Program-made: the position numbers and the translations under genes
Notes under the pieces: model-generated
Told to the model about the DNA's origin: nothing
Seen by the model: only the letters and a program-made list of their open reading frames with translations
Databases searched by the model: none
In this document: piece after piece, positions 14,046 to 39,537 of the stretch
How the letters are laid out: the number at the start of each line of letters is the position of its first letter
Position numbering within the stretch: the stretch's first letter is position 1
Assembly (NCBI GenBank): GCA_027618515.1
Contig: JAQCEV010000016.1
Coordinates: forward strand, 1-39,661
Direction: 5' to 3'
DNA length: 39,661 bases
Origin: Chloroflexota bacterium
Lineage (GTDB): Bacteria; Chloroflexota; Dehalococcoidia; Lucifugimonadales; Australimonadaceae

Positions 14046-15296
14046 TTGGGGGATATGGAACGCTACCTGCAATCTTCTCGTACATTCCCTGGCGCCACGC
14101 CTGCTGAGACGGAGATCCGACGGCGAATCTCGGCTGACGGGCCGATGACGTTCGCGGATTTCATGGGCATCGCGCTGTACTGGCCTGACGGTGGGTATTA
14201 CACGTCAGGCGCGGCATTTGGGGCGGACGGCGATTTCTACACGGCACCGCTGACGCACCCCGTATTCGGTGCGCTGGTGGCTAAGCAAGTGGAGGAGATG
14301 TGGCGTGCCGCTGGCACTCCTGAGCGTTGGTGGGTGGTGGAGCCCGGCGCGGGCCTGGGTCAACTCGCGGCCGACGTCTTGGCTGCCGTTGGTGATGGCG
14401 AATCTGCGAGTGCGCTGCGTTACCTGGCTGTCGACCGCTCACGGCCCCGGCAGCCTGTCGCTGGCATGTCCTGGGCGCAGTCGTTGGCATTGCCTGTTCG
14501 TGGCTTGCGGGGCGTGGTGCTGGCGAACGAGCTGTTCGACGCCATGCCCGTGCATCGAGTGACGGTCGTCGACGGTGCTTTGCGCGAGATGTTCGTGGGC
14601 CTTGATGACGACGGGCGATTCGTGGACGTGCTTGGCGCCGCCAGCGTTGGCATTGCGGAGCGCCTCGATGGGTTGGGCGTGACGCTGGCCGAGGGGCATC
14701 GAGCCGAGGTCTGCCTAGAGCTAGATGCCTGGATGGCGGGCGTCGGGCTCGCGATGGATTCCGGTTACTTGCTGCTGGTGGACTACGGTCATGACGCGAC
14801 TGCGTATTACAACAGCACGCGGCATCGCGGTCTGTTGCGCACGTACTACAAGCACACGCTCGGGATGGACCCGTACGCCCACGTGGGGCGTCAGGACATC
14901 AGCGTGCACGTGGAGTTGACCTCGTTGCGCCAGGCGGCGGTCGCCGCCGGATTCACGGAGGCGGGGGCGACGACGCAAGCGGAGTTCCTGCGCTCGCTGG
15001 GCTTCGACGCGTACCGCGCTGACATCGCGTCGCGTCGCGATCTGCCGACGCCCGTGCGAGTGGCGAACCTACGTGCGCTGGACACGCTGGTGGATCCCGA
15101 AGGGATGGGGGCGTTCAGAGTTCTGGCGTTCGCGAAGGGTGTTCCCGCTGACGGTCTGAGCGGATTCTCCGGCATGGAGCCTGAACTATCCGTCACTGCG
15201 CCATTGGCGACTGGCTTCCACATGCCGCTCGGCGGAGCGCCAGGCGATGCGACGGAAGTGGTGGAGATGCCCAGTTGGGACGAGTTGCTCAAGTAG
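14046..15296 (+). CDS. MidA/NDUFAF7-family SAM-dependent methyltransferase (DUF185)
   Basis: ISADGPMTFADFMGIALYWPDGGYYTSGAAFGADGDFYTAPLTHPVFGALVAKQV, VEPGAGLGQLAADVL, VLANELFDAMPVHRV, LLVDYGHDA. Confidence 0.92.
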   Translation: MGDMERYLQSSRTFPGATPAETEIRRRISADGPMTFADFMGIALYWPDGGYYTSGAAFGADGDFYTAPLTHPVFGALVAKQVEEMWRAAGTPERWWVVEPGAGLGQLAADVLAAVGDGESASALRYLAVDRSRPRQPVAGMSWAQSLALPVRGLRGVVLANELFDAMPVHRVTVVDGALREMFVGLDDDGRFVDVLGAASVGIAERLDGLGVTLAEGHRAEVCLELDAWMAGVGLAMDSGYLLLVDYGHDATAYYNSTRHRGLLRTYYKHTLGMDPYAHVGRQDISVHVELTSLRQAAVAAGFTEAGATTQAEFLRSLGFDAYRADIASRRDLPTPVRVANLRALDTLVDPEGMGAFRVLAFAKGVPADGLSGFSGMEPELSVTAPLATGFHMPLGGAPGDATEVVEMPSWDELLK

Positions 15297-15310: not shown

Positions 15311-16198
15311 TTACTCTGCGTCAGATTCAGATTCTGCTTCTGATATGGACTCGGGCTCGTCTGGTTCCGCAGGTGCTTCTTCAAACAATTCGCAGCGGCG
15401 CGCAGTGATGATGAACCCGGTGTGGGCCACCATGCGGTGCTCCGGTCGTACGCTCATCTCCGTGACGTGCCACGGCCGTTCGATGAGTTCTGTGGTCTCG
15501 ATGAGCCGCCAACGTGGGTCTGCAGTCAGGGCCAAGCTGAGCTTGTGCACTTGGAGGACGGTGGGCAGGAACGCGGCGAGAACACCTCCGGTACGCAGCG
15601 ATACGGCAACATGTTCAACGGCCTGCCAGGGTTCAGGCAGGTCCAGCAGTATGCGATCGACGGCACGTTCGGCGAAGCCTGATTCGTAGACATCGGCTAC
15701 GACGATGTTGTGGTTCGTGGACTCTGGAGTGAGTTGGCTGATGTTGATTTTGGCCTTCTCTATGATCTCCTCGCGCACCTCGTACGTGGTGAGCGATCCC
15801 GTTGGGCCGATGGCGCGCAGGATCGCGGACGCCGCCGCGCCGGTACCGAGCCCGCCTTCGACGACGTTGGCGCCAGGGTAGAGGTCAAGGCGCATCAGTA
15901 GCGCGCCTAGATCCTTGGGGTAGATCACCTGGCTCTGCCGGGGCAGGTCGTAGATGCTCTCCTGGAACGTGGGACGGAGCGCCGTCACGCGGTGGCCTTT
16001 GCTGGTGACAGCGATGAACCCCTCTGTGCGTCCGATGATGTCATCGTGGTTGATGGCACCAAGGTGAGACGAGTAGCTGCCGCCGGTGTATAGCGGCACG
16101 CGGTAGCGTCGTCGACGGCGGTCGTACAGGATCACGATGTCGCCGTCGGCGAATGGTGAACGGTTGCGTGCTGCTTCTGAGGCGTGAGGGTAGGGCAT
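15311..16198 (-). CDS. trmI: tRNA (adenine-N1)-methyltransferase (TrmI family, m1A58)
   Basis: PKDLGALLMRLDLYPGANVVEGGLGTGAAASAILRAIGPTGSLTTYEVREE, RILLDLPEPWQAVEHVAVSLRTGGVLAAFLPTVLQV; acidic C-terminal tail. Confidence 0.9.
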   Translation of the reverse strand: MPYPHASEAARNRSPFADGDIVILYDRRRRRYRVPLYTGGSYSSHLGAINHDDIIGRTEGFIAVTSKGHRVTALRPTFQESIYDLPRQSQVIYPKDLGALLMRLDLYPGANVVEGGLGTGAAASAILRAIGPTGSLTTYEVREEIIEKAKINISQLTPESTNHNIVVADVYESGFAERAVDRILLDLPEPWQAVEHVAVSLRTGGVLAAFLPTVLQVHKLSLALTADPRWRLIETTELIERPWHVTEMSVRPEHRMVAHTGFIITARRCELFEEAPAEPDEPESISEAESESDAE

Positions 16199-16204
16199 AG
16201 TTAA

Positions 16205-16260
16205 AACAAGAGCGGAGCCGCTGCTGTGCAACGGCCCCGCCGAAACTCCGTGTTCTTGTT
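16205..16260 (-). terminator. Terminator-like hairpin after the peroxiredoxin gene
   Basis: AACAAGA..CGGAG / CTCCG..TCTTGTT inverted repeat ending in TTGTTTTAA on the minus strand. Confidence 0.6.
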
Positions 16261-16279: not shown

Positions 16280-16741
16280 TTACCCCTGGAGCTTGTCGAG
16301 TTCTGCGAGAACAGCCGCCGGGTCAGGCAGCGTGCCCTGGTGCAACTCCGTGTGACGGATGATGCCTTCTTTGTCGATGATCATCAGTGAGCGCCTGGAT
16401 GTTCCAGAGTCCTCGTTGAAGATGTCGTACAGCTTGAGCGTTGCGCCGTGGGGCCAGAAATCAGACAGGAGCGGGTGACCGAGGTTGCCCAACGAGTTGG
16501 ACCAGTTGCGTAGTCCTGCTCGTGGGTCGGCGCTGAGGCCGATGAGCTGGGCTCCCTTTTCTTCGAACTGCTTCAACGCACGGTTGAAGGTTGATGCCTG
16601 GGCCGTTCACCCACCGGTGAATGCCGCAGGGAAGGTGTGTAGTACGACCCACTTGTCGCCTTTGAACGAGCTGAGGGTTACCTCTTCGTTCTCATGGCTC
16701 TTGAGGGTGAAATCAGGAGCAGCTTGGCCGACTTCTAGCAT
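16280..16741 (-). CDS. Selenocysteine-containing peroxiredoxin (AhpC/TSA-AhpE/BCP-like); internal TGA at 16609..16607 read as Sec
   Basis: Continuous reading through one TGA gives MLEVGQAAPDFTLKSHENEEVTLSSFKGDKWVVLHTFPAAFTGGUTAQASTFNRALKQFEEKGAQLIGLSADPRAGLRNWSNSLGNLGHPLLSDFWPHGATLKLYDIFNEDSGTSRRSLMIIDKEGIIRHTELHQGTLPDPAAVLAELDKLQG*. U falls at the peroxidatic Cys of the PxxxTxxC motif. ORF track only finds the 98-aa 3' half. Confidence 0.93.
16571..16589 (-). promoter_or_regulatory. Bacterial SECIS element (apical stem-loop) downstream of the Sec UGA
   Basis: CUUCAAC-CGUGC-GUUGAAG (7-bp perfect stem, 5-nt loop, G at loop position 2); stem begins 18 nt and loop 25 nt after the UGA. Confidence 0.8.
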
Positions 16742-17208: not shown

Positions 17209-18828
17209 CTAGCTAACGCACTGCGGGTCTGACGGTTTTGCTGCGCAGAGTTCCTTGAGTTCTTGTTCAGGGCTTAGCATGTGCTTCTCGTCGCCGTCCT
17301 CCGGTGGTGGAGGCGGGGGTGGCGTAGCGTCGCCCCCGCACTTGGCGTCTTGCGGGTTTTCGGCGCACAGCTTCGCAAGCTCGTCTTCTGGTGGAGGCGG
17401 AGGTGGCGTAGCGTCGCCGCCGCACTTGGCATCACGTGGGTTTTCAGCGCACAGCTTCGCAAGCTCATCGTCTGGTGGAGGCGGAGGTGTAGCATCGCCG
17501 CTGCACTTGGCGTCACGTGGGTTTTCAGCGCATAGCTTGGCAAGCTCGTCATCGATCGGAGGCTTGCCTCCGCCTTCTCCGTCCAGCGGGGGAAGCGGCT
17601 GGTCACCGTCGTGTGGCGGCACGAAGTTTTCGCAGTGCGCGTCGTTCGGATTCGCTTCGCAGAACGCCACCTGCTTGTTGGCTTCGTCGGATCTGCCGGG
17701 CGGGGGCGCGACGCCGTCGTGATTCTCGGGCGGTGCACAGGACTGACGGATGTTCTCAGCCTCATCGTCGCTGATCGGTCCGTCGATCTTGTGGCCGAGG
17801 GCTTCTTCCGCGCAGACCAAGACATCTGACGGCGGGGGAGGTTCGCTGGGGTCACCGAGGCCAACACACTCCTCGGATATCTTGGTCTTCTCTTCTTCGC
17901 TTACGGGCCCGTCGGCGGAACGACCGAGCACCCGCTCCACGCAAGCGGCGATCTCTGGCGGTGGCCTATCTGCGGCCGGGGCGTCATCTCGAGCTCCCTC
18001 TGCCGGAGCGCCACAGACCTCGTCGAACTTCGTTCGCTCATCTGGCGTGACGCTGCCGTCCAACGGTCGGCCTAGCACGCCTTCGATGCACTCAAGTACG
18101 TTGGGTGGTGCGACTTGACCGGGGTCACCACCGCCACCGGCCGCTCCTTGGCACTCCTGCTCGAACTTAGCGCGTTCATCGGCTGTCGCTTGGCCGTCGA
18201 ACGGTCGACCGAGCACGCGCTCGATGCATTCGATGACCTCCGCTGGTGGTGCGCTACCGGGCCCGCCATCGCGACCGCCGCCGTCTTCGGGCGCGCCGCA
18301 CGCTGCGTCGATCTTTGCGAGCTCTTCTTCGGTGAGGTTCTGGTCGAGCGGTCGACCGAGTACCTTCTCGATGCACTTAAGGACATCTGGCGGGGGCTCG
18401 CCCCGGTTTTCGCCGGAACCTCCTCCGATGCCCGCGCACTCGCCAGCGACGAGCGCTTTCTCCTCATCGCTGATCGGGCCGTCGAGCGTCCGACCGAGGA
18501 CGCGTTCGGCGCACTCGATGACTTCTGGCGGAGGAACGTCGTCCACTGGCCCGCCGTCGTCGCCGATGCACTCAGCCTGCACGCGTTCCGCTTCACCGGG
18601 CGTCACGTCGGCCTTGCGTGAGATCTTGCGCCCGAGCAATTCTGACGCGCACTCGGCGATAGTGTGTTCTTCGCTCGCAGCTTTGCTAGCGGTCTCTTTG
18701 CGTATGGCTTTGATGGGGTCGGCTTCGCCGGGGTCGACTTTGATCTTCGCGTTGGCCTTCTCTACAGCCTCTTTGACCACCGCGCCTGCGCCATCGTCGC
18801 CGTCTGTCCGCTCAGCGATCTTGGCCAC
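17209..18828 (-). CDS. Cys-pair repeat protein region (probable C-terminal part of the PKD/DUF5666 protein, frameshifted)
   Basis: 539 aa with about 7 copies of xxECIERVLGRPxDGxxTxEExxKxxxxC and about 5 copies of DELAKLCAENPRDAKCxGDATPPPPP; overlaps the upstream ORF in the -1 frame. Confidence 0.75.
   Translation of the reverse strand: MAKIAERTDGDDGAGAVVKEAVEKANAKIKVDPGEADPIKAIRKETASKAASEEHTIAECASELLGRKISRKADVTPGEAERVQAECIGDDGGPVDDVPPPEVIECAERVLGRTLDGPISDEEKALVAGECAGIGGGSGENRGEPPPDVLKCIEKVLGRPLDQNLTEEELAKIDAACGAPEDGGGRDGGPGSAPPAEVIECIERVLGRPFDGQATADERAKFEQECQGAAGGGGDPGQVAPPNVLECIEGVLGRPLDGSVTPDERTKFDEVCGAPAEGARDDAPAADRPPPEIAACVERVLGRSADGPVSEEEKTKISEECVGLGDPSEPPPPSDVLVCAEEALGHKIDGPISDDEAENIRQSCAPPENHDGVAPPPGRSDEANKQVAFCEANPNDAHCENFVPPHDGDQPLPPLDGEGGGKPPIDDELAKLCAENPRDAKCSGDATPPPPPDDELAKLCAENPRDAKCGGDATPPPPPPEDELAKLCAENPQDAKCGGDATPPPPPPPEDGDEKHMLSPEQELKELCAAKPSDPQCVS
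17212..17670 (-). repeat. Tandem repeat array encoding LAKLCAENPRDAKC-GGDATPPPPP units (about 84 bp)
   Basis: Near-identical DNA units visible at 17310-17560. Confidence 0.85.
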
Positions 18829-39005: not shown

Positions 39006-39335
39006 ATGGCAAAGCCTGAGCACGTAACAGACGCAGAATTTCAGAAGTCGGTTCTCGAATCCGACATTCCGGTTTTGGTGGATTTCTGGGCTGACTGGTG
39101 TGGCCCTTGTAAGATGATCGCCCCTGTCGTCGAGGAGCTCGCCGAAGAGTACGACGGCAAGTTCGCATTCGCCAAGCTGGACGTGGACTCGAACCCGCAG
39201 ACCGCGATGACCTTCGGTATCCGCAGCATCCCTGCGCTGCTGTTGTTTAAGAACGGTGTCGTGGCTGAGCAAGTTATCGGCGCGGTTCCGAAGGCGATCC
39301 TCAAGCGCAAGATAGACAAGGTTCTCGAGGACTAA
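39006..39335 (+). CDS. trxA: Thioredoxin
   Basis: VLVDFWADWCGPCKMIAPVVEELAEEYDGKFAFAKLDVDSNPQTAMTFGIRSIPALLLFKNG. Confidence 0.97.
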   Translation: MAKPEHVTDAEFQKSVLESDIPVLVDFWADWCGPCKMIAPVVEELAEEYDGKFAFAKLDVDSNPQTAMTFGIRSIPALLLFKNGVVAEQVIGAVPKAILKRKIDKVLED

Positions 39336-39439: not shown

Positions 39440-39537
39440 GGGGGTGGATGGGTCCCGGTGGGTCTCGCGGTCTTCAAAACCGTTGCCGGGCTAGCTTCCT
39501 AGTCCGGGGTGGGTTCGACTCCCACGCACTCCCGCCA
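39440..39537 (+). tRNA. selC: tRNA-Sec (selenocysteine, anticodon UCA)
   Basis: GGGGGTG/CACTCCC acceptor (one G-U; 8th position G-G), D arm GGGUCC-CGGU-GGGUCU (6 bp), anticodon arm GCGGU-CUUCAAA-ACCGU, long variable arm CCGGGCUAG-CUUC-CUAGUCCGG, T arm GTGGG-TTCGACT-CCCAC, discriminator G and encoded CCA. Confidence 0.96.

Follow-up and report, generated by a model that had tools for sequence, protein, structure and literature searches.

A concealed AhpE-type peroxiredoxin gene with a predicted selenocysteine codon at the peroxidatic position in a Chloroflexota bacterium

The window considered here is the whole stretch of 39,661 nucleotides analysed from a Chloroflexota bacterium (contig JAQCEV010000016.1). 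On its minus strand, a reading frame opens with an ATG at 16741, preceded about 8 nt upstream by a GGAGG, passes through a single TGA and ends with a TAA at 16280, encoding a peroxiredoxin of 153 residues when the UGA is read through. The gene (16280..16741, minus strand) has been assigned to the AhpE type on the basis of its frame, its PF00578 match, its resemblance to AhpE and a fold model. The in-frame TGA (16607..16609, minus strand) is codon 45, a predicted selenocysteine (Sec) codon at the position of the peroxidatic Cys, as judged from orthologs and 197 homologs. The catalytic motif reads P38-AAF-T42-GG-U45, where the TGA takes the place of the Cys in the PxxxTxxC pattern. In the standard ORF listing the gene is represented only by a 98-aa, TTG-started fragment (16280..16576), and this start (16576) lies inside a candidate bacterial SECIS hairpin (16571..16589, minus strand), which has been delimited by its geometry and by codon constraint. 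The 153-residue frame, with homology on both sides of the TGA, had been proposed in a first-pass annotation of the window; it was re-derived from the sequence and found to be exact, and the PF00578 (AhpC/TSA) match is continuous over the TGA (residues 4-130, E 3e-33).

Directly downstream of the peroxiredoxin gene lies a TrmI-type tRNA m1A58 methyltransferase gene (15311..16231, minus strand), followed by a 416-aa ORF (14046-15296). This order is kept in most relatives, and a functional link is not obvious. A 539-aa protein (17209-18828, minus strand) has no Pfam match and consists of a repeated unit with Cys residues (CxxxxLGRxxDGxxxxEE...C and LCAENPRDAKC). On the plus strand, a tRNA-Sec gene (selC, anticodon UCA, 39440..39537) has been found by both ARAGORN and Rfam (RF01852, 71.4 bits with a gathering threshold of 47), in agreement with the earlier annotation. 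Immediately upstream of it is a thioredoxin gene with a WCGPC motif (39006..39335, plus strand); no other strong match to PF00085 was obtained in the genome. Outside the called genes, the window also contains 18 short single-TGA candidates, none of which resembles a redox protein by eye.

Sequence comparisons have revealed that the top PDB matches of the predicted protein are all Mycobacterium tuberculosis AhpE (E about 5e-29, 38% identity). An AlphaFold model built from an alignment of 14 orthologs (pLDDT 94, pTM 0.89) has AhpE as its best PDB match by fold, superposing on 1xxu with a TM-score of 0.95 and 1.3 A. The active-site Pro, Thr and Arg (P38, T42 and R117) are invariant in all 14 aligned orthologs, and the predicted protein contains no Cys at all, the lack of a resolving Cys being a characteristic of the AhpE type. 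In AhpE-type enzymes a Tyr or Phe has been described where Prx6-type enzymes carry a His (PMC12697902). By our own reading this residue corresponds to position 37, which is occupied here by a Phe directly before the catalytic Pro38; PDB entry 5c04 is the F37H mutant of the M. tuberculosis enzyme. The NCBIfam equivalog model for PrxU (peroxi_PrxU, NF040737) gave 60.9 bits where the cut-off is 270, which places the protein outside PrxU, and the NCBIfam models of other peroxiredoxin subfamilies scored far under their cut-offs. By nearest sequence and modelled fold, the predicted protein is thus an AhpE, a 1-Cys-type peroxiredoxin.

The position of the TGA is strongly conserved. When 16 genomes of the family to which the window belongs were searched, a match was obtained in all 16 and an orthologous gene in 15, the best match in the remaining genome (G008) being a PrxQ-like paralog. 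Each of the 14 fully aligned family orthologs, the window included, carries one TGA at the homologous codon, with identities to the window of 52-89%, and the fifteenth, a partial sequence (L030), has it too; the nearest named record is a same-genus genome with 88% identity. The same codon is a TGA in three loci from other MAG records. The source is a draft assembly of 178 contigs and Cys forms occur elsewhere in the family tree, so that a sequencing or assembly error for TGC or TGT in an ordinary Cys AhpE was examined, a possibility that the first-pass annotation had raised. The same TGA is nonetheless present in 17 other loci, comprising 13 other family orthologs of full length, the partial one and the three loci of other MAGs. 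Since one codon cannot err alike in so many assemblies, this explanation is considered excluded for practical purposes.

A wider comparison included 197 homologs drawn from the class, other Chloroflexota, Sulfobacillus, Actinomycetota and Desulfobacterota-type records; one extra row consisted of a partial sequence ending short of the site. In these homologs the codon aligned to position 45 was TGA (78), TGC (90) or TGT (29), and nothing else. The earlier reading of the TGA as standing on the catalytic Cys is therefore borne out, and the non-Cys residues that had been put forward as a reason for doubt were looked for at this codon and not encountered. The 98-aa fragment obtained by standard ORF calling would fit a pseudogene, or a true stop followed by a separate or dead TTG-started ORF. 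Against this, the invariant P38, T42 and R117 flank the TGA on both sides, and purifying selection was detected upstream and downstream of it in most pairs tested, with a downstream dN/dS of 0.01-0.34 in all seven pairs tested. Furthermore, the stop is confined to a single homologous codon, at which neither TAA nor TAG was found in the 197 homologs; the few TAA codons observed are over 100 codons further downstream, close to the C-terminus. Gene decay or genuine termination at codon 45 is accordingly regarded as extremely improbable.

The decoding of UGA as Sec requires separate consideration. Insertion of a canonical amino acid, such as Trp or Cys, through near-cognate decoding would also yield a full-length product, and this reading draws on the fact that Sec insertion is predicted rather than observed and on a SECIS candidate of marginal energy. 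It is opposed by a complete Sec machinery: selA, selB and selD, whose absence had been named beforehand as a ground for rejecting a selenoprotein, are all present in the same genome, each above its curated cut-off, a tRNA-Sec is encoded in the window, and SelD itself has an in-frame UGA (motif CAGUAGKF). It is also opposed by Cys being the sole alternative residue at the site, by the occurrence of UGA at redox-active positions in 10 of the 18 AhpC/TSA matches of the genome, and by the co-occurrence of TGA genes with selB. Across 197 genomes of the class, selB was present in 47 of the 51 genomes with a TGA-form AhpE and in 84 of the 146 others (Fisher p 1.5e-6, relatedness ignored); the four TGA-form genomes without a selB match are all MAGs, 69-93% complete. 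Canonical read-through is consequently held to be very improbable. A whole-genome reassignment of TGA was rejected, since some genes of the window terminate normally at TGA. Among its 32 clear genes, the stop codons are TAG in 18, TAA in 10 and TGA in four, a small sample, in a stretch of 62% GC where a TGA stop would usually dominate. A lineage with numerous UGA-Sec genes may possibly avoid TGA for termination.

Taken together, these data make it highly probable, at the level of gene prediction, that the locus encodes a full-length "1-Sec" AhpE-type peroxiredoxin in which UGA45 is read as Sec. The description of the gene as a hidden selenoprotein in the first-pass annotation is supported to the same extent, with Sec insertion as an inferred step.

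The element that would direct Sec insertion has been approached in several ways. The candidate hairpin (CUUCAAC-CGUGC-GUUGAAG) has a 7-bp stem and a 5-nt loop with a G at loop position 2, the loop starting 24 nt after the UGA. The bSECIS model (PMC13188914, Fig 2) specifies a stem of 4-16 bp, a loop of 3-9 nt located 16-37 nt past the UGA, a G at loop position 1 or 2 and an energy of at most -7.5 kcal/mol. The candidate fits in stem, loop, G position and spacing, while its energy of -7.3 kcal/mol is 0.2 short of the limit. The fold of a 68-nt stretch is no better than that of shuffles (z -0.22), the criteria of the model are passed by 57% of TGA genes and 48% of Cys homologs, and an Rfam search for a SECIS returned nothing at E up to 10. 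The structural prediction by itself is weak. The SECIS support of weight comes only from a comparison of group stability and from a codon-constraint scan. In the former, the downstream region was more stable in TGA genes than in Cys homologs relative to synonymous shuffles (Mann-Whitney p 3e-7, relatedness ignored). In the latter, codon identity beyond codon usage was scanned over the full length of the gene in each of three sequence sets, and the maximum of synonymous constraint fell at codons 51-57 in all of them (z 10, 12 and 21, uncorrected; the sequences being related, it is the rank that counts and not z). The letters TTC AAC CGT GCG TTG AAG are unchanged from genus to genus, despite TTG and CGT being minority codons; the stem hardly varies and covariation is uninformative.

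Different structures have been found in other members of the group. A sister genus (L018-L020) has GUCGUUC-GGUC-GAGCGAC instead, also a 7-bp hairpin, while a larger hairpin is found in more distant TGA relatives. Such a larger hairpin, CUCCUCG...CGAGGAG in L028, L029, L045 and L046, together with the observation that the minimum-energy structure of the window's own region pairs otherwise than the hairpin at 16571-16589, would suit a full-length selenoprotein whose SECIS is another structure. This variant of the main explanation is unlikely, given that synonymous constraint along the gene peaks exactly at codons 51-57 in all three sequence sets. The hairpin at 16571-16589 is retained as the SECIS candidate.

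Based on the sequence and on analogy to the mycobacterial enzyme, we infer Sec insertion, peroxidase activity and the identity of the reductant. The UGA at codon 45 would be decoded as Sec by tRNA-Sec and SelB, under the direction of the in-frame hairpin some 24 nt further on. The selenolate would be activated by P38, T42 and R117, as is Cys45 in M. tuberculosis AhpE, and would attack the peroxide to form a selenenic acid (Se-OH). Because the peroxiredoxin has no Cys, an outside reductant would be needed for the oxidised selenium, and resolution may be accomplished by an external thiol, be it a low-molecular-weight thiol, a glutaredoxin-like protein or a thioredoxin. The thioredoxin encoded at 39006-39335 is a possible reductant.

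The distribution of the Sec and Cys forms has also been addressed. In a tree built without the Sec column, the Sec/Cys label needs 12 changes, compared with a mean of 40 after shuffling, and at least five of these are on well-supported branches, which indicates that Sec and Cys have been interchanged several times. Within the family of the window, this ortholog occurs only in Sec forms. A Cys at +5 is present in 2 of 53 Sec forms and 34 of 71 Cys forms by raw counts; these counts are suggestive, yet it is not claimed that Sec goes together with loss of a resolving Cys at +5, as only five independent pairs lie on supported branches and they give no significance. Three loci from MAG records titled Gammaproteobacteria (L072, L074 and L075; JAPOYW010000151.1, JAPPAV010000092.1 and JAPOVK010000032.1) carry a gene of Chloroflexota type in which all 19 nt of the hairpin are the same. 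These records are probably mislabelled or mis-binned, transfer being the other reading. A second frame match in L055 (aa 664-784, minus strand) is a peroxiredoxin-like gene near a Cys AhpE homolog, in which a TGA precedes a Cys by three codons (UPYC). In another locus of the same class (L234, G177:C50:2990-3590), a 2-Cys AhpC-type motif, YPGDFTFV[TGA]ATEL, has its TGA at the peroxidatic Cys, representing a Sec form that does not belong to the AhpE subtype.

Additional candidate selenoproteins have been detected in the same genome. A profile search with PF00578 gave 18 matches, 10 of which contain a single TGA, in every case at a redox position. The motifs are PAAFTGGU (the window's peroxiredoxin), DFTKGU, GGGNU, WUPFC, WUPYC, WUTNC, WUNC, WUAVC and, twice, TUPPC. 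A thioredoxin-like gene with TUPHC and SelD raise the UGA-bearing total to at least 12 in one 3-Mb genome, a minimum obtained from searches of a few families. Besides the window's peroxiredoxin and SelD, these comprise ten Trx-fold genes with one in-frame TGA each on contigs of the same genome (G000), namely C138, C90, C50, C61, C154, C115, C102, C134, C114 and C112 (loci L153, L157, L154, L156, L161, L163, L165, L166, L167 and L173), with the sites TKGU, GGGNU, UPFC, UPYC, UTNC, UNC, UAVC, UPPC (twice) and UPHC. A 2006 survey reported 6-31 selenoproteins in its selenoprotein-rich bacteria (PMC1794560), and SelA and SelB have been described as commoner in bins of sponge symbionts from several phyla than in closely related references (PMC5649159). 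It appears rather probable that this Dehalococcoidia-like family is unusually rich in selenoproteins largely hidden from annotation and relies on lineage-wide Sec-based peroxide and thiol redox chemistry, combining a family-fixed, Cys-free 1-Sec AhpE with a battery of Trx-fold selenoproteins. The peroxide-reducing enzymes of this Chloroflexota group are liable to mis-calling, about half of the AhpC/TSA matches of this genome being UGA-containing genes that a standard ORF caller would truncate, and a mis-called peroxiredoxin complement shifts the oxidative-stress capacity and selenium need predicted for these uncultured bacteria. The Cys-free 1-Sec AhpE also offers a clean natural system for the resolution of a lone selenenic acid, beside the mycobacterial 1-Cys AhpE.

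When compared to known systems, the closest counterpart is the 1-Cys AhpE of M. tuberculosis (Rv2238c; PDB 1xxu, 4x0x and 5id2), which has the same fold and the identity given above. The two share an active site comprising P38, T42, position 45 and an Arg (R116 in M. tuberculosis, R117 here), as well as the Phe preceding the catalytic Pro, and both are without a resolving residue. They differ in residue 45, a Cys in the mycobacterial enzyme and a UGA, predicted to encode Sec, in the window; in the absence of any Cys from the window's protein; and in their hosts, Actinomycetota and Chloroflexota, respectively. Sec-peroxiredoxins are a well-established bacterial family, as the first-pass annotation had stated (PMC13188914, PMC2398784, PMC1794560), and the window's gene joins it; less familiar is how densely UGA-hidden redox proteins occur in the lineage. 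With the TxxU members of that family the gene has in common the PF00578 domain, the PxxxTxxU motif with UGA at the peroxidatic position and the existence of Cys homologs in other genomes, whereas its subtype is AhpE and not PrxU. The TGA-bearing AhpE-like genes of the same class and of Sulfobacillus and Anaerolinea records have their TGA at the same aligned codon as the window, but are below about 50% identity to it, and many have different predicted hairpins; some sister clades use Cys.
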